Shown here: positions 2,087 to 50,203 of the stretch, piece after piece | Position numbering within the stretch: the stretch's first letter is position 1 | Layout: each line of letters begins with the position of its first letter | Origin: Arenibacter amylolyticus | GTDB lineage: Bacteria; Bacteroidota; Bacteroidia; Flavobacteriales; Flavobacteriaceae | DNA: 50,203 nt | Reading direction: 5' to 3' | NCBI RefSeq assembly: GCF_002150785.1 | Contig: NZ_MTAZ01000012.1 | Location: 1 to 50,203, forward strand | Made by a program: the position numbers and the translations under genes | The notes under the pieces: model-generated | The model's database searches: none | Told to the model about the DNA's origin: nothing | Seen by the model: the letters and a program-made list of their open reading frames with translations, nothing else

Positions 2087-3359
2087 AGAGAAGGTCTGTT
2101 AATCTTTCCAAAGCCATTCCTCTAGATCCCTTTATTAGTATTGTAGCTCCCTCCGTGGAAATATTCCCTATGTGTTCTTTAAGTACTTCAAAGGATGAAT
2201 ATTTGTGTAGGGAAGTTGTAGTTTGATGGAAGTTTTCACCAATCAATACTACCGTATCAAAATTCATTTCTGCGGCAAGGTCTGCAATGGCTTGATGCTC
2301 TTTTTTTGCTGAACTACCCAGCTCAAACATATCCCCTAAAAAAGCAATCTTACGCGTTGCTTTTATTGAATGGAGGTTTTCCAAGGCGGCCTTCATGCTA
2401 GTGGGATTGGCATTGTAGGCGTCCAAGATAATCTGAGTGCCGTTTTTTTCTATTACTTGTGAACGATTGTTTTTTGGGTTGTAATTCTCCAAGGCTGACT
2501 TAATTGCTGATAGAGGTACCTTAAAATAGTGGCCCATAAGTATTGCTGCACAACAGTTGGTGAAGTTATAGCTGCCAATTAACCTGCTTTCTATGGTTAC
2601 TTCCTTTACTTTTAAAGTGACATAGGGGTTGCACCCCTGGAATATTATAGGCAGGTGGTTTTGTGGGTGCTGGCTATACCCTAATTTATTGTCGGTATTT
2701 GCAAGTCGTTGAACCTGTATTGGATCATCGGCATTAAAAAAGACAAGATTATTGTTTGTCAGCAGGTAGTCATAGAGTTCGCTCTTGGCTGCAATAACCC
2801 CTTCCTCGCTACCAAATCCCTCTAGATGTGCTTTTCCAAAATTGGTGATATAGCCGTAATCTGGTTGGGCCAATTGGCAAAGGAAACCGATTTCATTAGG
2901 GTGGTTGGCACCCATTTCCACTATGGCGATTTCCGTATCGGACGTTATGGAAAGAAGGGTTAGCGGAACTCCAATATGGTTGTTTAGGTTCCCTTTGGTA
3001 GCAATGGTCTTGTATTTTTCTGAAAGTACTGCTGTGATAAGCTCCTTGGTAGTGGTCTTTCCATTGCTACCGGTTAGCCCTATGATCTTTGCGCTGCAAA
3101 ATTGCCTGTGATATTGCGCTAACTGTTGTAGGGTGTCTAGAACATCATCAACTAAAATGAAGCGCTCCGAACCTGCCAATTCGCGTTTATCTACAAGAGC
3201 ATAGGAGGCCCCTTTTTCCAAGGCTTCCGATGCGTAGTCGTTTCCATCAAAATTATCACCCTTTAGTGCAAAGAATAAGCAGTTTTGGGATACTTTTCTA
3301 GTGTCCGTACATATATCCGGATACTTTAAAAAAAGGCTGTGCAGTTGTTCTATTGTCAT
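2085..3359 (-). CDS. murF: UDP-N-acetylmuramoyl-tripeptide--D-alanyl-D-alanine ligase
   Basis: MurF adds the D-Ala-D-Ala dipeptide to UDP-MurNAc-tripeptide using ATP, the last cytoplasmic step of peptidoglycan precursor synthesis. The protein has 424 residues, normal for Bacteroidota MurF. An N-terminal substrate domain (TDTRKV, then ALKGDNFDGNDY) comes first. The Mur-ligase P-loop GLTGSNGKTTTKE has its Lys at 101. The central domain has VEMGANHPNEIGFL, and the C-terminal domain has LDAYNANPTSM and AFLGDMFELG. It lies downstream of gldJ on the same strand, but a strong hairpin separates the two, so expression may be independent. Confidence 0.96.
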   Translation of the reverse strand: MTIEQLHSLFLKYPDICTDTRKVSQNCLFFALKGDNFDGNDYASEALEKGASYALVDKRELAGSERFILVDDVLDTLQQLAQYHRQFCSAKIIGLTGSNGKTTTKELITAVLSEKYKTIATKGNLNNHIGVPLTLLSITSDTEIAIVEMGANHPNEIGFLCQLAQPDYGYITNFGKAHLEGFGSEEGVIAAKSELYDYLLTNNNLVFFNADDPIQVQRLANTDNKLGYSQHPQNHLPIIFQGCNPYVTLKVKEVTIESRLIGSYNFTNCCAAILMGHYFKVPLSAIKSALENYNPKNNRSQVIEKNGTQIILDAYNANPTSMKAALENLHSIKATRKIAFLGDMFELGSSAKKEHQAIADLAAEMNFDTVVLIGENFHQTTTSLHKYSSFEVLKEHIGNISTEGATILIKGSRGMALERLTDLL

Positions 3360-3370
3360 TGGTCGAAGAT

Positions 3371-3407
3371 AGAAAAAAAGCCCTTTTATGTAAAGGGCTT
3401 TTTTTCT
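3371..3407 (-). terminator. Terminator between gldJ and murF
   Basis: An almost perfect palindrome (AGAAAAAAAGCCCTTT at 3371-3386, complement ending at 3407) with a short loop. Its flanking A and T runs let it work in either direction; by position it ends gldJ. Confidence 0.8.
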
Positions 3408-3432: not shown

Positions 3433-5097
3433 TTATTTTCGCACTTTCTTGCTTCTAGGTGTTTTGTTATTTGTTTTGGATTTGGAACCTACCCTAGACA
3501 TGGCACATCTAAATCCAATATAATCCGTTGCCATATATTGAGGTAGGTACCTTCTTTGGGCCGGATCTAGCCAATAGGCTCTGTCTCTCCAAGAACCTCC
3601 TTTATATACCCTAACTTCGTCATTTATCAAAGTAGTTCTGTTGTTAGAGGTATCGTAAGCTCTTACTAACTCCCCATCCTCATTTACCTGAACCTTGCTC
3701 ACTGGGGAATTGTACATTTTCTTTGCATTATTGTCATCTGTATCTCCACTAGTAAATCTGTCGTAGTAGCGGGTAGATCCTGGTTCCCCATCTCTATATC
3801 CGCGGTTGTCGCTAGTAGAGAAATTGGTTCTTAGGAAGGTCTCTTCCTCTCCAACGGGGACCATTTTAATTTCTCCCGGTAGATTTCTAGCTAAGATTTT
3901 CCCATTGGGCATGGTGTCGTAAACAACGGAGTCCCTTATTACTTTCACTTTTCCGTCCTCTCCAATGGCGGTTTTCATAAATACGTTCCCTCTAAAATAG
4001 TTGAAGTCGCTTACTTCATCATCTACGATGGGTCGGTACACATCCGCTACCCATTCGGCCACGTTACCAGCCATATCATACAGACCAAAATCATTGGGCT
4101 TATACGATTTTACTTCCGCAGTAATATCGGCACCGTCATCGGACCATCCTGCAATTCCGCCATAATCTCCTTTCCCTTGTTTAAAGTTGGCCAATTGGTC
4201 CCCTCTTCCTACGCGCTGTCCATTTCTGGTGTAGTTTCCTTCCCATGGATACTTCTTTCGTCCCCTATAGTTATTGTACTCTCTACTACCTATTTGGGCT
4301 TGGGCAGCATATTCCCATTCGGTTTCGGTGGGAAGTCTGTATTCAGGTAAAATTACGCCGCTGCTTCGTTTTGCAAATACAGAAACGGAATCCCTCTTGC
4401 GTTTCCCTTGCAGGGAATCTATCTGTCCATTGTAAACAGATTCTGGTCGGTTAAGATAGGCTTCGGTGCTAAAGCTGCCATCTATTTCTCCTGTGACTAC
4501 TTTGTATTTTGCGTCCTTGGAAAGGTAGCCTTCCCGTTCTAGCATTACTTCATTTACACGGTCTGTTCTCCAAGCGGCAAATTGGGTGGCTTGTATCCAG
4601 TTTACTCCCACCACGGGATATTCTGCATAGGCAGGGTGTCTTAAGTAATTATTGGTCATGGTTTCATTATAGCCCAACCTGTTTCTCCATACCAGAGTAT
4701 CCGGTAGTGCTCCAGTATAAATGTGAACGTATCTTGGGTCTTCTGGAGGATATACGCTTTTAAGGTAGTCTAGGTATTCCAGGTACATCACATTGGTAAC
4801 CTCTGTTTCATCCATATAAAAGGACTGTACGTGTTGGGAGGTTGGCGTATTATTCCAATCCTTCATCACGTCATCTTGAACCTGCCCTTTGGTGAAAGTT
4901 CCCCCTTCTATAAAAACGAGCCCTGGGGCGGTTTCCTGTTCCTTAAAGTCTGAATTATATTGAAATCCTCCCTCCTTGGCGTTAATTTTCCAGCCTGTGG
5001 CTCGCGAGGTGTTTTTGGACGATGCATTTTTGCAACTTGTAAAACCACCCGCTACAATTGCACAGGAGAGTACAACTTTGATGAATTCTTTTTTCAT
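3433..5097 (-). CDS. gldJ: Gliding motility / type IX secretion lipoprotein GldJ
   Basis: GldJ is an outer-membrane-associated lipoprotein of the gliding motor and type IX secretion system; in Flavobacterium johnsoniae it is needed for both and stabilises GldK. The 554-residue protein starts with a lipoprotein signal (MKKEFIKVVL..., lipid Cys22). A formylglycine-generating-enzyme-like fold follows: GGTFTKGQVQ, then MDETEVTNVMYLEYL, a tryptophan-rich core (RLPTETEWEYAAQAQIG) and GLYDMAGNVAEWVADVY, ending in VYKGGSWRDRAYW and GFRCAMSRVG. The C-terminal tail is very basic (SKSKTNNKTPRSKKVRK). GldJ uses the fold structurally and is not regarded as an active sulfatase maturase. It lies divergent from porV, with murF downstream. 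Confidence 0.96.
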   Translation of the reverse strand: MKKEFIKVVLSCAIVAGGFTSCKNASSKNTSRATGWKINAKEGGFQYNSDFKEQETAPGLVFIEGGTFTKGQVQDDVMKDWNNTPTSQHVQSFYMDETEVTNVMYLEYLDYLKSVYPPEDPRYVHIYTGALPDTLVWRNRLGYNETMTNNYLRHPAYAEYPVVGVNWIQATQFAAWRTDRVNEVMLEREGYLSKDAKYKVVTGEIDGSFSTEAYLNRPESVYNGQIDSLQGKRKRDSVSVFAKRSSGVILPEYRLPTETEWEYAAQAQIGSREYNNYRGRKKYPWEGNYTRNGQRVGRGDQLANFKQGKGDYGGIAGWSDDGADITAEVKSYKPNDFGLYDMAGNVAEWVADVYRPIVDDEVSDFNYFRGNVFMKTAIGEDGKVKVIRDSVVYDTMPNGKILARNLPGEIKMVPVGEEETFLRTNFSTSDNRGYRDGEPGSTRYYDRFTSGDTDDNNAKKMYNSPVSKVQVNEDGELVRAYDTSNNRTTLINDEVRVYKGGSWRDRAYWLDPAQRRYLPQYMATDYIGFRCAMSRVGSKSKTNNKTPRSKKVRK

Positions 5098-32001: not shown

Positions 32002-33123
32002 GTGGCATTGATAAAGCTTCACGACAAATACTTTAAGCCATTTATAAGCGAGGGCGAAATTTTGGCCGCGGTAAAAAAGATGGCAGACACCATTGCAGAA
32101 GACTATAAAGGGGAAGTTCCCATCTTTGTAGGTGTGCTAAATGGGTCATTTATGTTTGTGTCCGATTTTCTGAAAGCGTATCAGCATCCATGTGAGGTTT
32201 CTTTTGTGCGATTGAGTTCTTACCAAGGGCTCACCTCCACGGGAATTGTGGAAACCCTATTGGACGTCCCGGAAAATATTGAGGGGCGTAGTGTAATTAT
32301 TTTGGAAGACATTATCGATACGGGGCGGACAGTGAGGAAATTGATCGATATATTTTCGGAAACCAACGTAAAGGACTTCAAAATTGCTACCATGTTTTAC
32401 AAATCCGACGTCTACAGTGGGGAGTATGATATTGATTATTTCGGGATGAAGATTGAGGATAAGTTTATTGTGGGCTACGGATTGGATTATAATGAATTGG
32501 GAAGAAATTTAAAGGAAGTTTATCAAATTAACCAAAGACACATGATTAATCTCGTTTTGTTCGGGAAACCGGGAGCAGGTAAGGGTACGCAGGCCTCGTT
32601 TTTAAAAGAAAAATATAACCTTAAACACATTTCCACCGGGGATGTTTTTAGGTTCAACATAAAGAATGGTACCGAATTAGGTAAACTTGCCAAGTCTTAT
32701 ATAGACAAAGGAGAACTGGTCCCAGATGAGGTAACCATAAATATGTTGCAAGACGAGGTGGAGAAAAATGCCGATGCCAGTGGCTTTATTTTTGATGGTT
32801 TTCCAAGAACTACTGCACAGGCAAAAGCCTTGGATGATTTCTTGGTATCCAAACAAATGAAAATTGATGCTACTATTGCTTTGGAGGCAAATGATGAGGT
32901 GTTAATCCAGCGATTGCTAGAACGTGGCAAGGTAAGCGGAAGGTCTGATGACCAGGATGAGGATAAAATCCGTTACAGATTTGAGGAATATAACGAGAAA
33001 ACTGCACCCTTAAAAGATTACTACGACGCTCAAGGGAAGTTTCATAGTGTAAACGGGATAGGCTCCATAGAGGATATAACCAGCCGTTTGGCCAAAGTAA
33101 TTGAAGAATTACAGGAGGCCTAA
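32002..33123 (+). CDS. Hypoxanthine phosphoribosyltransferase - adenylate kinase fusion
   Basis: A two-enzyme polypeptide of 373 residues. Residues 1-180 are a hypoxanthine/guanine phosphoribosyltransferase (purine base + PRPP to IMP/GMP), with LNGSFMFVSDF and the PRPP loop EDIIDTGRT (102-110). Residues 181-373 are a complete adenylate kinase (ATP + AMP to 2 ADP): P-loop GKPGAGKGT (188-196), ISTGDVFR, FDGFPRT and GRSDD.., with the short LID and no zinc site. The start is GTG at 32002, giving MALIKLHDKYFKPFIS; no ATG fits a full HPRT domain. Met181 (ATG at 32542) is exactly where a free adenylate kinase would begin, so an internal start is possible. It is divergent from purK-purE. Such fusions occur in flavobacteria, as far as I recall. 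Confidence 0.93.
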   Translation: MALIKLHDKYFKPFISEGEILAAVKKMADTIAEDYKGEVPIFVGVLNGSFMFVSDFLKAYQHPCEVSFVRLSSYQGLTSTGIVETLLDVPENIEGRSVIILEDIIDTGRTVRKLIDIFSETNVKDFKIATMFYKSDVYSGEYDIDYFGMKIEDKFIVGYGLDYNELGRNLKEVYQINQRHMINLVLFGKPGAGKGTQASFLKEKYNLKHISTGDVFRFNIKNGTELGKLAKSYIDKGELVPDEVTINMLQDEVEKNADASGFIFDGFPRTTAQAKALDDFLVSKQMKIDATIALEANDEVLIQRLLERGKVSGRSDDQDEDKIRYRFEEYNEKTAPLKDYYDAQGKFHSVNGIGSIEDITSRLAKVIEELQEA

Positions 33124-38400: not shown

Positions 38401-41400
38401 TATCTGTATGAAAAGCATTATGGAAGGAAAAGGAGTAATGAATTACAAATCCTCCCAAATCGCCTGGTGTAACTGGAATTCTTAAGGTTTTAGTGGTGTT
38501 GTTAAGTTTTAACAGGTGGGTTGCAACAATCTTTCGCTCTTTTTCTACTAACAGGGTAACCGATAGGTCCTTGGCAGCAGAGCTCACCTTTAGTGTAACC
38601 TGGTCTTCAATAGTGTAGGAGGGTTTATCGTATTTTATCTGAAAAAGTTGCTGGTCCGCTAGGGTTTTATCGGAAGGGTTATAGAGGGTGGTGTAAGCAA
38701 TATCCTTTACGTCCTGACCAAAAATATCGGAGGTGCTTAACTCCAAGCGATATTTGCCAGAGGCCCATTTCTTAGAGAGATTCAATTCAATGGTCTTGCC
38801 GTTTTCAGTATTAAAAGGAGCTTCCCAAACCAATTCTCCATTTGGCCATTGGGAAGGATCGGACTCATCTTCAAAGGAATCGTGGGGAAAGCGTTTTTTA
38901 AACTCTTTTTTGTCAAAACCAGGATAATCCGGTGCGGCCCAGGGTCGTGGTCGCAGTACGCGGTCTGGACCCTTTAGTTTATACATTTTTATAGTTCCTT
39001 GGGTAGGAGTTGCTTGTCCGTTAAGGTTTTGGGTGCTAATTGTAATTTTATGCTTTTTATTCTTCTGGTTAATGAGTTCTGCAATTTCAATATTAGCGGT
39101 AAGGGCATGGTATCCTACTTTTATGTTTGTGGTGGCGCTCCTTGTTTCACCGTTCAAATCCGTTACATCTGCAGTGACCTCGTAGTTAAAAACCGGTAAC
39201 TGCTCTTTGGGAACCGTTAGGTCTGGTATGGCCATAAAGTTTATGCCGAACTGCCCCTTGGCATCCGTGGTAGTGGTGCCCTGTGCAATGATTTGTGGAG
39301 TTGCCTGGTAATATGGAAGGTGTTGGCCGTGCCAAATTATGGATCTTACTATTCTTTTTACGGTGTATTTTACAGGGGCATGTGTTATAGTACTCCCCGC
39401 ATATGCCACGGCCTTTCCTTGGACCAAAACACTGTCGTTGAGCGGATAAGTTTCTGTGATGGGCTGAAACGTAGTTTCAAATCGTGGGCGTTTATATTCT
39501 TCCACAGAAATAGTTTGATATCCGTGGAGGTTAAATTCCGTAGAGGTGGCCTCTAAGGAGAAGTTGCCTGTAAGGGTATTGTTTGGAATGGTAAATTCCC
39601 CAGAAAAGGAGCCGTAATTATTGGTTTTAAATTCCTGAACCGATACCACTTGTTGGTTGCCATCCTTTAAGGTCACTTCAATTTCTGTCTCGGTTAATAT
39701 CTCAGAGGTGTTTTCTGTTCTTTGCAAGGCAATTCCCTTAAAAAATAAGGTTTGACCTGGTCTGTAGATACTGCGATCCGTAAAAAGAAAACAGGGATAG
39801 CTGGTGTCCTTTCCCTCTAACATTGTTTTTTTAGGAACATAGATGTCTTTAAAATAGGCTATTTGTCCCTCGTGGCTGACCTCTGCGGTGATGTTATTTG
39901 GAGATTTTGCATTTAGGGGTAAGGAAACCCTCCCCAATTTATCGGATGTAAATACCTTAGTTTCTGTAGGACTTTGGTAGCTGGGCCGATACGAGATCTT
40001 AAGCTTAGCACCTATCTTAGGTGCCCCGTTAGTTCTATTTATTATTTGGAAGTTGAGCAGTTCATTTGTTCTAGATTCCACGAGGGCCAGGTCTGTGACC
40101 TGGATAGGGGTGAACGAGGAGCTGGTGTAGGTGGCGTCTTTTGGAGTGGCCAAAAGGATGTAATTGCCATTTGGGAGTTCTGGCAACAGCACTTCTGTTT
40201 GGTGTTCTTGATGGTCGTTTTCATTTTTTAAAGTGGATTCCCATTGCTTTTCCAAAGCTAGCTTTTTTATGAAAGCGAGTTTTTTCTCCTGAGGATATAG
40301 TGTGTTTAATGTTTTAAGTTCACTGGCTGAAATTTGGTGGGCGGCCAGTTGTAAGTGTGAAAGATTCTTATACGTAACCAGAATCTTGGAAGGGGTGTGT
40401 ACCGGGATATGTTGTTCTGTGGTGAGACGTAGGTTGCTAGTGAGAATTTGAGATTTTAGGGAGGTACATCGTTCAGCTGCACGGCTACTCGGGAATTGTT
40501 CAATTATAGAATCGCAGATATCCAAGGCTTCCTTGTGTTTCCATCTTGGGGTTGGATTAATGGTAGGGTGATAGGTGTTTCCGCTCTGATGATGTGCATA
40601 TGCAATTTCATAGCGATACAGCGCACTGTGTTCGTTCTCTTTAAAAGTTTCGGCAGAATTTTGGAGTACCTCAATATATTGCTGATCCTTATTGGGGAAC
40701 ACGGCATTTTCCCAGATGAATTTCAATCGGGCTATATCCACGTCAACCAAGGCTTCAAGAGAAGGATCGGATAGATGGAACAACACTAATTGTTGATAGA
40801 GTTGAAGTGCTTTAAAGTGTGATGATGTTTTATCGTTAGTAGTAATATTTTGCTGAACAAACTCCTTTGCATTGCAAAATATACTTGGGTTGTTTAGTTC
40901 AAATTTATCGGCTGGACGGGTGATGCTATTTTCGGAACTGGTATAAAAGTCCAAAGCGTTATGTGCCAAAAGATCAAATAGAGTAGGTCTGTAAATTTCC
41001 GAATCGTCTTGTTTTACCAGAATTTCATTATAGTGATCAACCGGTGTTTGTTGCAAGTGGGACTTATTATTTAGAGATGCATCAAAATGTTTTCCTACCT
41101 CATAAAACAAGGTGGTTAAATCCCAAGTCCTGAAATCGGCGCTATCTATTTTTGTTTCCGTTTTGGTTCGATCGTAAAATCGATATCTATTTTGTTGAAA
41201 ATACTGCCAATATAAGTTGGCCAAATACCCTTCCAGAATATTTTTTACAGGCACCTGGTTTTCTGCTATCTTATCTTTAAAATCCTCAATAATTTCCAAT
41301 TGCGCGTCCTCTTCCAGGACCATACTATATTTGGAAGCGTATAAGAGGGATTTAATAACCTGGGGCTCCTGATGGTCCTTTTTTGCTTTAGCGGAAATTT

Positions 41401-45006: not shown

Positions 45007-48000
45007 ATGATTAAAAGAACACTATTGTTTTTTAAGCTCTGGCAGAAATTTTTTCCCTATTGGGCAGGTTTTATCCTTGTAGTGCTCGGGCTTGTTCTTC
45101 CAAATTCTTTATGGGCGAACAATTATGAATCCAACGAAATAATCGGTGAATATCAAAGCACCGTAAAAGGGGTTGTGTTAGATGAAACTGGAATGCCCAT
45201 TCCTGGCGCCAATGTCTTGGAAAAGGGAACTACTAACGGAACCGTAACTGATTTTGATGGTAATTATAGTATAAATGTTGCTTCGGATGCAGTTTTAGTA
45301 TTTTCCTACATTGGTTATAGTAATGTAGAGGTTGCTGTAAATGGGCAAAACACTATTGATGTTAGTATGGAAACCGATGTTACTGCCTTGGAGGAAATTG
45401 TGGTAGTTGGGTATGGAACCCAGCGGAAACAAGATCTTACAGGGGCAGTATCAGTGGTAAAAACTGATGATCTGCAAAAGCAACCCTCGGGACAGGTGAC
45501 CAATCAATTGCAAGGAAGGGCTTCTGGAGTTACCATTACAGGAGGAGGACAGCCTGGCGAGGCACCTCAAGTAAAAATTAGGGGGTCTAACACTTTTGGA
45601 AACAACAATCCACTATACGTGGTAGATGGTATTCCAACCGATAATATTAGCGATCTAAACCCTAACGATGTGGCATCCATGCAGGTTTTAAAGGATGCTG
45701 GTTCTGCTTCCATTTATGGATCTAGAGCTGCTAATGGTGTAGTTGTTATTACAACCAAAAAAGGAAAGGGAAAAATGAGGGTGACTTATGACGCGTATTA
45801 TGGTACCCAGATGGTACAGAGCGGTAACCCATGGAATATTCTTTCTTCACAAGAAATGGCCGACTTAACATTTATGGCCTTGAGGAATACCAATCCAGGG
45901 GATCCCATTAACCATAGCCAATACGGTAATGGAGCCACTCCGGTACTTCCAAATTATATTGCTCCTGTTGGTGCAGATACCGTTGATGAGTCGTTGTACA
46001 ACGTAAATCCTAATTATACCAGTAGTTCAGATTTGGATAATTTCTATAGGATTGTAAAGGCTAATAAGCAAGGAACTAATTGGTTCCAAGAAATCTTTAG
46101 TCCGGCTAGTATAACCAGTCATAACTTGTCCGTTAGTAATGGAAATGAAAAAGGAAGTTATTTATTCTCGTTAAACTATTTTGACCAAGAGGGAACTCTG
46201 AAAAACACTTATTTAAAGCGCTATACAATGCGATCTAATACGGTATTCAATATTTCTGACAATATTAGGATAGGACAGAATCTTAGCTTCAGTATTAGAG
46301 AAAATCCTCAAATTAGCGCGTTGAGCGAGGGTAGTGCCATTGGAATGGCCATCAGACAGCAACCAATTATACCTGTTAGGGATATTAAAGGGAATTATGC
46401 TGGATCGTTTGGTTCCGATTTAGGAAACGCGAGGAATCCAGTTGCTATAATGGATCGTACTAGAAATAACAGGGGAGTGTCTAACCGAATTTTCGGAAAC
46501 ATGTTTGCTGAAGTTGACTTTATGGAGAACTTTACGTTTAGAACAAGTTTTGGAGGGCAGTATTACTCTAATAGCTTTAACTCGTTCTCTTTCCCAGAAT
46601 ATGAAAATGCCGAAAATAGTTCGGTAAACACCTATAGGGAAGCCGCACATACGAGCTTCAATTATACTTGGACGAATACCCTTCAGTATCAAAACACTTT
46701 TAATGATGTTCATAACCTGAATGTTTTGGTGGGGACGGAAGCCTATAAGAACAGAGCGAGAGAAGTAGGTGGGTCTATGCAAAGTTATTTCTCTTTTGAT
46801 CCAGATTATGTAACCTTGGAGACTGGTTCGGGAACACAGACCAATTACAGCTGGAAAAGACAAGATGCATTATCTTCCTTGATAGGTAGATTAGATTATA
46901 ACTATGATGACAAATATTTATTGAGTGCTACTATTCGCCGCGATGGGTCCTCTAGGTTTTTAAATAATCAGTATGGATGGTTTCCGGCAGTCAGTGCAGG
47001 GTGGAACATTAGCAATGAAGCTTTTATGCCAGAAATGGATTGGTTAAATGATCTTAAAATCCGTGGTGGTTATGGAGTAATGGGGAATCAATTGAACGTA
47101 GATCCTGCAAACTCGTTTACCACCTTTGGTGGAAATCAGCAGAATTCATACTATGCGATTTCAGGAAGTAATCAAACAATTTCAGAAGGTTTCCAACAAC
47201 AACGAATTGGAAACCCAGATGCAACTTGGGAAAAGAATATCAATTCTAACATAGGATTGGATGCAAGTTTGTTTAATAGCAGTGTACAGTTAAGTTTAGA
47301 TTACTACAAAAAGGAGATTAAAGACTTACTTTTTAATCCTAGCTTACCGGCCACTGTTGGGAATGCTACTGTTCCCTTCGTAAACGTTGCGGAAATGGCA
47401 AACAATGGGTTGGATATGGATGTATCTACCTTTTTTAACCTAACTGACGATTTGCGTTTAAACACTACGCTAACCTTAACTACTTACAATAACGAAATTA
47501 AAAAGATTGCCGATGGTTATAGCTACTTTGACCGGGAAGGCAGACGATTTAACGGTAGTACAATTATTAGAAATGCGGTGGGGCGATCTGTGAGTGAGTT
47601 TTATGGATACAAAATTGTAGGATTTTGGAATTCAGAAGATGAGATTGCCGATGCTAATGCGGAAGCAATTGCAGTAACTGGCGATCCGAATGCTACTTAT
47701 CAACCAGATGTTGCCGTAGGTAGATTTAGGTATGCAGACAGTGATGGTGACGGCAGAATAACCGCTGATGATCGGGTTTTCCTAGGAAATCCAAATCCCG
47801 ACTTCACTTATGGGTTAAACTTAGAATTGATATACAAAAATTGGGATTTGAGCATGTTTCTATATGGATCCCAAGGAAACGATATTTGGAATAATGTGAA
47901 ATGGTGGACAGATTTTTATAGTTCATTTACAGGGGCTAAGAGTCATACAGCACTCTACAACTCCTGGACTCCGCAAAATATGGATGCTAAAGCCCCCATT

Positions 48001-48297
48001 CAGGAAACTACGGGATCGTTTAGTGTAGCAGATGTTCCTAACTCCTATTTTGTTGAGGACGGTTCCTACCTAAGGGCAAAACACATTCAGTTAGGGTACA
48101 CCTTCCCTACAGAATTAATGAACAGAGCCAATATTTCCAAGTTGAGGTTGTATGCTCAAATGGTAAATGCCTTTACAATTACCTCCTATTCAGGAATAGA
48201 TCCGGAAATTTCTGGTGGTACCGTTAATTTTGGAATAGATGAAGGTGCTTATCCCAATCAGAGACAACTTCTATTTGGGGTAAACGTAATTTTTTAA
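45007..48297 (+). CDS. SusC/RagA-type TonB-dependent outer-membrane transporter
   Basis: The barrel half of a SusCD importer that takes up an oligosaccharide, peptide or similar nutrient with energy from TonB. The 1096 residues have a long signal peptide (to about Ala38). A carboxypeptidase-like regulatory domain follows (about 50-130; VKGVVLDETGMPIPGANVLEKG, then TDFDGNYSI), then the SusC signature EEIVVVGYGTQRKQDLTGAV and the plug (PLYVVDGIP, ASIYGSRAANGVVVITTKKG), then a 22-strand barrel ending in LLFGVNVIF. No N-terminal STN/anti-sigma-signalling domain is present. A calcium loop DSDGDGRITADD lies at 911-922. Its stop overlaps the susD start by one base (TAATG). The substrate cannot be told; no CAZyme or sensor gene is in view. 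Confidence 0.96.
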   Translation: MIKRTLLFFKLWQKFFPYWAGFILVVLGLVLPNSLWANNYESNEIIGEYQSTVKGVVLDETGMPIPGANVLEKGTTNGTVTDFDGNYSINVASDAVLVFSYIGYSNVEVAVNGQNTIDVSMETDVTALEEIVVVGYGTQRKQDLTGAVSVVKTDDLQKQPSGQVTNQLQGRASGVTITGGGQPGEAPQVKIRGSNTFGNNNPLYVVDGIPTDNISDLNPNDVASMQVLKDAGSASIYGSRAANGVVVITTKKGKGKMRVTYDAYYGTQMVQSGNPWNILSSQEMADLTFMALRNTNPGDPINHSQYGNGATPVLPNYIAPVGADTVDESLYNVNPNYTSSSDLDNFYRIVKANKQGTNWFQEIFSPASITSHNLSVSNGNEKGSYLFSLNYFDQEGTLKNTYLKRYTMRSNTVFNISDNIRIGQNLSFSIRENPQISALSEGSAIGMAIRQQPIIPVRDIKGNYAGSFGSDLGNARNPVAIMDRTRNNRGVSNRIFGNMFAEVDFMENFTFRTSFGGQYYSNSFNSFSFPEYENAENSSVNTYREAAHTSFNYTWTNTLQYQNTFNDVHNLNVLVGTEAYKNRAREVGGSMQSYFSFDPDYVTLETGSGTQTNYSWKRQDALSSLIGRLDYNYDDKYLLSATIRRDGSSRFLNNQYGWFPAVSAGWNISNEAFMPEMDWLNDLKIRGGYGVMGNQLNVDPANSFTTFGGNQQNSYYAISGSNQTISEGFQQQRIGNPDATWEKNINSNIGLDASLFNSSVQLSLDYYKKEIKDLLFNPSLPATVGNATVPFVNVAEMANNGLDMDVSTFFNLTDDLRLNTTLTLTTYNNEIKKIADGYSYFDREGRRFNGSTIIRNAVGRSVSEFYGYKIVGFWNSEDEIADANAEAIAVTGDPNATYQPDVAVGRFRYADSDGDGRITADDRVFLGNPNPDFTYGLNLELIYKNWDLSMFLYGSQGNDIWNNVKWWTDFYSSFTGAKSHTALYNSWTPQNMDAKAPIQETTGSFSVADVPNSYFVEDGSYLRAKHIQLGYTFPTELMNRANISKLRLYAQMVNAFTITSYSGIDPEISGGTVNFGIDEGAYPNQRQLLFGVNVIF

Positions 48298-50093
48298 TGA
48301 GGATGAACGATAAAATAAAGTATATGAAAATTATAAAACAACTAAGTAGACTATATATACCTATACTAACATCGCTGTTAATTGTAGGTTGTAGTGATAA
48401 TTTCCTAGAGCAACCTGCCTTAGGAGCTTTAAGTGAGGATGTAATTGCCAATAAGGATGGTGTAGATAATTTGCTGACCGGTGCTTACGCGGCCCTGGAT
48501 GGGGTTGGATTTGGAGGTGCAGCTTGGGAAGCAGCGCCTGATAATTGGGTTTACGGTACTGTAGCGGGTGGTGAAGCAAGTAAAGGAAGTTTCGGAGGTG
48601 ACCAACCTGCTATTGATCAAATTGTAAAGTTTATTTCCAATCCATCCAACGGTTATTACAATAGCAAATGGAGAGCGCTATATGGAGGAGTTACCCGAGC
48701 GAATAACACCTTGAAATTATTAGCTAAGGCCACAGATATCTCAGAGGAGGACAGCAAAAATATTGCTGCTCAAGCTCGATTCTTAAGAGGGCACTTTTAT
48801 TTTGAGCTGAAGAAAATGTGGAATATGGTTCCTTGGATCGATGAAACAACTGAAGATCCCAAGCAGCCAAATGATGTAGATATATGGCCTAACATTGAAG
48901 CAGATTTCCAATTTGCATTTGATAACTTACCTGCAGCACAGGACGATTTTGGAAGAGCAAATAAATGGGCAGCAGCGGCCTATTTAGGAAAGACATATTT
49001 ATATCAAAAGAAGTTTAACGAAGCTAAAACTGTCTTTACCGATGTGATCAATAATGGCGTTAATTCAGGAGGAGTTAAGTATGCTTTGGTTGAACGATTC
49101 AGGGATAATTTTGATGCAGCTACTGAAAATAATTCTGAAACAGTTTTCGATATTCAAATGGTAGCTAACGATGGGACCGGTTCCATTGCCAATGCTAATC
49201 AAGGTGGCATGCTAAACTTCCCTTATAATAGTCCATTCAGATGTTGTGGATTCTTTCAGCCTTCACAGGATTTGGTTAATTCCTATAAGACGGATCCGGT
49301 AACCGGACTTCCCGATATTTCAAATTACAACTCAGATCCAGTGAAAAGCGATATGGGGATTACCAGTAGCGAGCCCTTTAGTCCCGATACGAGGACATTG
49401 GATCCAAGGCTAGACTGGACAGTAGGAAGAAGAGGTATACCTTTTCATGATTGGGGCAAGCATCCTGGTATGGCTTGGATAAGGGAGCAGACCTATGGAG
49501 GTCCTTATGCGCCAAAAAAGAATATCTATTGGCAGGCTACGCAAGATCAGTATGCGGATCAAAGCTCTTGGGCGCCGGGTACAGCTATTAATGTTCGTGT
49601 GATCCGATTTGCAGATGTCTTGCTGATGGCAGCTGAGGCAGAAGCACAGGCTGGTAGTTTGGATGTAGCTTTAGATTATGTAAATCGAGTTCGTCAAAGA
49701 GCCGCAAATCCAGATGGCTATTTAAAGCAGTATGTGGATGAAGATGACCCAATGGCTGGATTTGACGAGAACAGTAATGCAGCCAATTACGTGATAGCAG
49801 ATTATACCTTGGCCGACTTTGCATCTAAAGAAATGGCGTTGGAGAGAATCTATTTCGAAAGAAAATTGGAGCTTGCTATGGAAGGGCACCGATTCTTCGA
49901 CTTGGTTAGATGGGGTATTGCAGAAGAAACCCTTAACACCTATTTTGATTATCAGGGAAATATAACCACTGATGTGAGAGGTGGAAGATTTATTCCTGGA
50001 AAAAGTGAATATTATCCCATTCCACAAGCTCAAATAGACTTGAGTGTAGGTGCAGATGGGGAGCCTACCCTAAAACAAAATCCTGGGTACTAA
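48297..50093 (+). CDS. SusD/RagB-type outer-membrane lipoprotein
   Basis: The surface lid that captures substrate for the SusC barrel. It is a helical TPR-like protein of 598 residues. The ATG at 48297 overlaps the susC stop (TAATG), implying coupled translation; the ATG at 48324 would give a tidier signal peptide (MKIIKQLSRLYIPILTSLLIVGC) and is the main alternative. The lipid Cys is in LLIVGCSDNFLEQPALG, the standard SusD start. Family features include ARFLRGHFYFELKKMW, IEADFQFAFDNLPA, GKTYLYQKKFNEAKTVF, VIRFADVLLMAAEAEAQAG, YVNRVRQRA, ERKLELAMEGHRFFDLVRWG and the end YYPIPQAQIDL. Complete. Confidence 0.95.
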   Translation: MRMNDKIKYMKIIKQLSRLYIPILTSLLIVGCSDNFLEQPALGALSEDVIANKDGVDNLLTGAYAALDGVGFGGAAWEAAPDNWVYGTVAGGEASKGSFGGDQPAIDQIVKFISNPSNGYYNSKWRALYGGVTRANNTLKLLAKATDISEEDSKNIAAQARFLRGHFYFELKKMWNMVPWIDETTEDPKQPNDVDIWPNIEADFQFAFDNLPAAQDDFGRANKWAAAAYLGKTYLYQKKFNEAKTVFTDVINNGVNSGGVKYALVERFRDNFDAATENNSETVFDIQMVANDGTGSIANANQGGMLNFPYNSPFRCCGFFQPSQDLVNSYKTDPVTGLPDISNYNSDPVKSDMGITSSEPFSPDTRTLDPRLDWTVGRRGIPFHDWGKHPGMAWIREQTYGGPYAPKKNIYWQATQDQYADQSSWAPGTAINVRVIRFADVLLMAAEAEAQAGSLDVALDYVNRVRQRAANPDGYLKQYVDEDDPMAGFDENSNAANYVIADYTLADFASKEMALERIYFERKLELAMEGHRFFDLVRWGIAEETLNTYFDYQGNITTDVRGGRFIPGKSEYYPIPQAQIDLSVGADGEPTLKQNPGY

Positions 50094-50123
50094 TTCCCTG
50101 CAGAGCAGTAAAGTCTTTAAATG

Positions 50124-50161
50124 AAAGAAGCCATTCCAACAATTGGAATGGCTTCTTTTTT
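50124..50161 (+). terminator. Strong terminator of the susC-susD operon
   Basis: A perfect 16-bp stem (50124-50139 and 50143-50158) with a CAA loop, and a T run reaching 50161. The group II intron begins at the very next base. Confidence 0.92.
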
Positions 50162-50203
50162 GTGTGCCGTGCATGGTAATTCGCTAGGTGGTGAAAGTCC
50201 ACT
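50162..50203 (+). mobile_element. 5' end of a group II intron (probably class IIC), cut by the window edge
   Basis: The sequence opens with GTGTG, the conserved 5' splice-site consensus of group II introns (GUGYG). It continues GTGTGCC-GTGCAT-GGTA (short stem TGCC/GGTA), then CTAGGTGGTGAAAGTCCACT, in which GTGG (50188-50191) pairs with CCAC (50199-50202) around TGAAAGT. This layout, including the GTGAAAGTCC box, is that of the start of domain I in bacterial introns such as B.h.I1 of Bacillus halodurans (recalled, not aligned). The junction lies immediately after the T-run of a terminator hairpin, the preferred target of class IIC introns. Only 42 bases are visible; the reverse transcriptase/maturase and domains V-VI would lie to the right. 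Confidence 0.75.

Follow-up and report, generated by a model that had tools for sequence, protein, structure and literature searches.

Insertion behind transcription terminators is a textbook property of group IIC introns. Published work describes IIC introns as inserting at intrinsic terminator motifs (PMC4424553) and as recognising a stem-loop located at their 5′ splice site (PMC7161350). The former source also describes the class C-attC integron introns, which are likewise IIC introns and take a DNA stem-loop as target (PMC4424553). The element described here belongs to a known kind of intron, whose terminator targeting is already established. Its added value is a nine-fold set of insertions, one of them with an exact empty site. 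Among the literature matches listed, none dealt with this case.

The window, by which we mean the whole stretch of DNA that was analysed (50,203 nucleotides), is the entire contig C7 of the 3.99-Mb draft genome of Arenibacter amylolyticus, which comprises 101 contigs. Its last 42 bases almost certainly represent the 5′ end of a group IIC intron that is present in at least nine copies, inserted behind intrinsic terminators. The position of the intron, its copy number, both of its ends, its association with terminators, one base-exact empty site and its kinship to group II introns with scored domains were all observed. Assignment to group IIC is supported by the ends, the target and the relatives, and the intron body, with a presumed reverse transcriptase (RT) and domain V, would lie beyond the contig end. 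The sequence-only reading had proposed a terminator-targeting intron of class IIC, and this proposal is likewise supported, by the terminators that precede 9/9 copies and by a IIC-like RT in the congener G011.

The likeness to the terminator-targeting group IIC introns (bacterial class C) extends to the GTGTG 5′ end, the domain-VI-like 3′ end with a bulged A and a terminal AY, the site right behind a hairpin and T-run, the precise insertion at one readable site, and the IIC-like RT of a congener. No difference from these introns was seen in the ends, from which alone the A. amylolyticus intron is known. With regard to the class C-attC introns, nine of the nine sites here are terminators in a search directed at terminator stems.

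The gene, the terminator and the intron start

The right end of the window carries a SusC-type TonB-dependent receptor gene (45007..48297, plus strand; PF07715, PF13715 and PF00593), followed on the same strand by a SusD-family gene (48297..50093; PF07980, 164.8 bits). The SusD orthologues used for comparison are 83–87% identical and come from four congeners; other matches in the genus, at 37–47%, were not used. Behind the SusD-family gene lies an intrinsic terminator (50123..50161, plus strand), which forms the 5′ exon and target of the intron. Its hairpin (50123-50159) was folded with 17 pairs and a CAA loop at −24.2 kcal/mol (z −7.55), the T-run reaches 50161, and a like terminator is found in the four congeners. 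A simple terminator scan of the window did not list this hairpin: the scan requires the T residues to follow the stem, whereas here the stem extends into them. From 50162 the letters read GTGTGCCGTGCATGGTAATTCGCTAGGTGGTGAAAGTCCACT, and the intron starts GTGTGCCGTG.

The 42 nucleotides at 50162..50203 (plus strand) would be the first of domain I. They have the same 5′ end as is found at nine contig ends and align with introns that bear RF02001. The intron is cut at 50203 because contig C7 stops there. A small putative domain-I hairpin (50187..50203, plus strand) was found by folding, with the stem GGTGG/CCACT and the loop TGAAAGT, and GGTG.AAGTCC is conserved in 8/8 aligned 5′ ends. The sequence-only reading was correct in these particulars: it had placed the end of the T-run at 50161, GTGTGCC at 50162, a GTGG/CCAC hairpin with a TGAAAGT loop next, and the insertion directly behind the terminator of a susD gene.

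No Rfam match at the gathering threshold covers 50162-50203. A covariance model of the 5′ end, R1, was built from 12/16 related intron 5′ regions; four (L073, L087, L089 and L090) were excluded for an unclear or missing GTGTGCC start. R1 gave the 42 nucleotides alone 8.5 bits (E 0.69), and a chance match at 39462 scored higher (11 bits). The same model matched none of the other eight cut copies of the genome at E ≤1; in five related loci it recovered a total of seven full 5′ ends, with scores of 42–63 bits. The 42 nucleotides are without significance by themselves, and the proof is comparative.

Pfam profiles were run on 34/37 window ORFs with a length of 150 aa or more and on three that are shorter; the three left out overlap other ORFs. 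No transposase, integrase or RT family matched, in agreement with the earlier claim that the intron is the only mobile element in the window. Three of the scanned ORFs matched no family at all. Elsewhere in the window, at 32002-33123, a phosphoribosyltransferase domain and an adenylate kinase domain are fused in one frame.

Nine copies, their terminators and their empty sites

Searching the genome with the last 160 bases of the window found the same 5′ end at eight further contig ends. A 21-nt pattern with at most 2 mismatches occurs at nine places, on C2, C7, C12, C19, C38, C46, C52, C82 and C84, all of them facing outward. The common 5′ stretch is 34–42 nt long and identical in 9/9 copies, and the 5′ boundary consensus GTGYG is GTGTG in all nine. 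The group II 3′-end pattern CCTACTCGA was found at 13 places in the genome. Nine of these are contig ends with one common 3′ end, located on C9, C13, C25, C26, C47, C50, C52 (the other end), C71 and C72. Of the remaining four, two are accounted for by a second intron, on C85, and the other two fall within contigs and appear to be chance matches. A longer 3′-end pattern returned the identical nine places and no others.

The nine 3′ ends are identical over 41–44 nt and terminate in the letters CTACTCGAT. The C71 end, the only copy folded, forms a domain-VI-like hairpin in which an A, the seventh base from the end, is bulged in CCT-A-CTC; one C is also unpaired on the other strand, and the terminal dinucleotide is AT. 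That the common 5′ and 3′ ends belong to one element rests on their equal counts (nine each) and on three pairings by synteny. The genome holds at least nine insertions of this intron. The nine 5′ and nine 3′ ends make up 18 of the 202 contig ends of the draft, so the assembly broke at a multi-copy element.

A stem of 11–17 pairs directly precedes the intron in 9/9 copies. It ends 2–7 nt from the junction and differs in sequence each time. As a control, every seventh base of the window was examined on both strands, and a stem of at least 11 pairs was found at 44/14,298 positions. The association with terminators exceeds chance. Eight of the nine copies, the exception being C46, lie 58–77 nt beyond the final sense codon of a same-strand ORF; these upstream ORFs include valyl-tRNA synthetase-, aconitase- and PEP carboxylase-like genes, as judged by eye from their translations. 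The majority consensus just upstream of the intron is TTTTTGTT, with G at −3 in 8/9, T at −2 in 9/9 and T at −1 in 7/9 copies, and the base after the intron is T in 8/9.

The 5′ and 3′ flanks adjoin in congeners at three sites, those of susD, aconitase and valS. The aconitase site is the exact one. Its flanks, C82 and C72, are contiguous in 5/5 relatives examined (G008, G001, G004, G009 and G012, of 17 found), and the alignment reads uninterrupted through AGTT|TTG in all five. Insertion at this site was therefore precise and made no target duplication. At the susD site, the intron is missing from G001, G008, G004 and G009, in which the like terminator is followed by the spacer and the next gene. 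This next gene starts the 3′ contig C47 and encodes a RadC-like protein, named by eye. From the junction to its ATG there are 44 nt here versus 111–131 nt in the four relatives. The spacer varies among the relatives, so this junction is not base-exact on the 3′ side, and base loss at insertion cannot be told apart from ordinary drift. At the valS site, the next gene of C13 adjoins in G001 and G004, with a spacer that could not be aligned; of six relatives tested (17 found), two gave strong matches to the next gene, two gave weaker ones and two gave none.

C46 and C71 form a possible fourth pair, which was not counted. The first bases of C71 equal the 3′ flank of the intron in the congener G011 at 25/25 nt, and the C46 flank is 87% identical to the 5′ flank of that intron over 55 nt. 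Judging from these flanks, the same terminator region may have been invaded by two IIC lineages, one in each species (C46/C71 here, locus L074 in G011). ARAGORN found no tRNA at the C46/C71 site.

Related introns in other genomes

The first 39 nt of the intron, with at most 3 mismatches, were found in 2/198 genomes, namely A. amylolyticus itself and a Flavobacteriaceae MAG contig (G033). The G033 copy differs at 3/39 positions, stands behind a terminator and runs into a match to RF02001 (group-II-D1D4-3) at 117.3 bits. The sequence-only reading had raised the possibility that the 42 bases are ordinary flanking sequence in relatives. They are absent at the four susD orthologue loci, and the 39-nt search found them in 0/17 other genomes of the genus, of which G004 is a single contig. 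The pattern recovers only 3/9 copies of the A. amylolyticus genome because the others are cut shorter; hence cut copies at the contig ends of draft congeners could be missed by it. With the scored domain I of related introns, the multiple 5′ and 3′ ends and the empty sites, the earlier identification of a group II intron 5′ start stands.

The exact 39-nt pattern was absent from the genome_contigs set, and the 42 nt had no match in a plasmid search. A degenerate 5′ pattern identified 16 stretches in genome_contigs and one in viral_contigs. Eleven of the 16 come from Sporosarcina limicola, and one each from Arthrobacter, a Hymenobacteraceae MAG, a Chitinophagales MAG, Flavobacterium BFFFF2 and the G033 contig. 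These 17 stretches were selected by their 5′ pattern, independently of any terminator, and in 15/17 a stem detector found 10 or more pairs ahead of the junction. The two that the detector missed, L067 and L072, share the same 60 bases and still fold at −17.9 kcal/mol.

The 11 Sporosarcina limicola loci (L056, L058, L059, L061, L063, L065-L067 and L069-L071) share the start GTGTGCC..GCATGG..A...GC.AGGTGGTG.AAGTCC, the pattern by which they were fetched. They also resemble the A. amylolyticus copies in that 9/11 lie no more than 60 nt from an end of the available DNA and 10/11 stand behind a stem of at least 10 pairs (detector). They differ in their Firmicute host and in CG replacing GT at positions 8-9. 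One of these loci, L070 (1-5206), holds two IIC-like introns on the minus strand. Their RT frames (4051-4692 and 2-673) both reach APQGG and then LCEALHK, as if broken at one codon by another group II element (RF01999 at 3498-3617); on the plus strand, RF02001/R1 match once more around 3224-3389.

RF02001 is present in 25/198 genomes, including 14/17 other congeners. In many of these introns the 5′ region is longer, and neither a T-run nor a hairpin was visible upstream, so not all of them are terminator-seeking. Full-length introns of 1898 nt (G011) and 1900 nt (G001) stand behind terminators, as seen by eye, and their domain I scored 147.6 and 146.3 bits, respectively. These two introns share the genus, the position behind terminators, the GTGTGCC start and an RF02001 domain I with the A. 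amylolyticus intron. They belong to another lineage, differing in the internal 5′ sequence (TAGCATGGGCGAT...) and in the 3′ end, which is CCTATCCGAT there versus CCTACTCGAT here. A D5-like hairpin follows the RT in both by eye, and Rfam Intron_gpII gave no score there even at E 10.

The G011 RT matched only RVT_1 and GIIM in Pfam. Against solved structures it scored 401 and 397 bits to the IIC RTs versus 151 to LtrA and 129 to the maturase RT of 6me0, and by these bit scores it appears closest to the IIC enzymes. The IIC RT structure 6ar1 carries the name GsI-IIC, while we take 7uim to be a IIC enzyme and 6me0 a IIB enzyme.

Two further loci were observed. In the Flavobacterium BFFFF2 MAG (L068:1497-1777), a seemingly 281-nt intron stands behind a terminator. 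Its intact domain I (136 bits) is joined directly to a TTCCTACTCGAT 3′ end and domains II-V are missing, which may represent a deletion derivative or an assembly error. In G009 (L079, 2008-2462), an RF01999 domain I follows an RF02001 domain I after 160 nt, a possible mosaic or nested intron.

The intron body, alternative readings and the likely mode of insertion

RF02001 had no match over the cut-off in the A. amylolyticus genome, in which the short contigs examined read as N. Under the same reading of the short contigs, RVT_1 and Intron_gpII found only a different group II intron, on C85 (L011, 1-4911), with an RF01999 domain I (109.7 bits), an RT and a domain V. The C85 intron stands after a C-5 cytosine methyltransferase gene. 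The left end of C85 has the same 41 nt (to CTCGA) as the 3′ end of this intron, so that an HTH regulator, a 314-aa protein and the methyltransferase seem to lie between two direct copies. The C85 RT scored 159 and 155 bits to the IIC RTs versus 119 to LtrA. It was left unclassed because it is only mildly closer to the IIC RTs.

The nine copies could instead be short ORF-less IIC derivatives, consisting of domain I joined to the 3′ end or of a ribozyme that lacks an ORF, and moved in trans by another RT. The sole RT in the readable genome does belong to a different intron, the L068 copy seems to have just such a short form, and the four Bacteroidota loci with the 5′ signature in genome_contigs have no RT frame by eye, a check made on ORFs of at least 80 aa in L025/L062, at least 200 aa in L060 and at least 150 aa in L068 and on a sequence stretch only in L057. 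Against this, congeners have full-length IIC introns with an RT, and the short contigs that read as N could conceal a normal 1.9-kb body. For the latter reason, an early deduction of a short ORF-less intron from the missing body, which drew on the retention of short contigs in the assembly, was dropped. We regard derivatives of this type as unlikely. More improbable still is the specific case in which ORF-less IIC RNAs, perhaps built like L068, would be mobilised in trans by the unrelated C85 RT as a MITE-like family of terminator-seeking ribozymes that spreads with no reverse transcriptase of its own.

It is highly improbable that the repeat is some other mobile element (IS, MITE or integron-related) with a group II-like end. 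The window itself offers 42 nt only, insignificant alone even with a separately built model, but the exact empty site has no target duplication, the targeting is specific for terminators, the 3′ end is domain-VI-like with a bulged A, and in G033 the near-identical 5′ end runs on into an RF02001 match. Finally, although the 42 bases and the other eight copies all stand at extreme contig ends, an assembly artefact or adapter is extremely improbable, since like 5′ ends occur inside contigs of other genomes with a group II domain I next to them, and the nine 5′ ends have their counterparts in nine 3′ ends.

The group IIC intron would be a retroelement whose RNA reverse-splices into DNA just downstream of an intrinsic terminator hairpin. 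Its target would consist of the upstream hairpin and a short T-rich stretch, with TTTTTGTT before the intron and T after it, and the intron-encoded reverse transcriptase would then copy the inserted RNA. By analogy with the family, the active form would be a lariat RNP, the target would pair through EBS1-IBS1 and EBS3-IBS3, and priming would take place at the replication fork. As the terminator is left whole and the site lies between genes, such an insertion would be nearly neutral to the host.

The element explains 18/202 contig ends of this draft genome, and the sequence-only reading recognised it from 42 bases on which Rfam has no match at the gathering threshold. With nine insertions behind nine different terminators, it provides a clean natural example of IIC terminator targeting in the Flavobacteriaceae.
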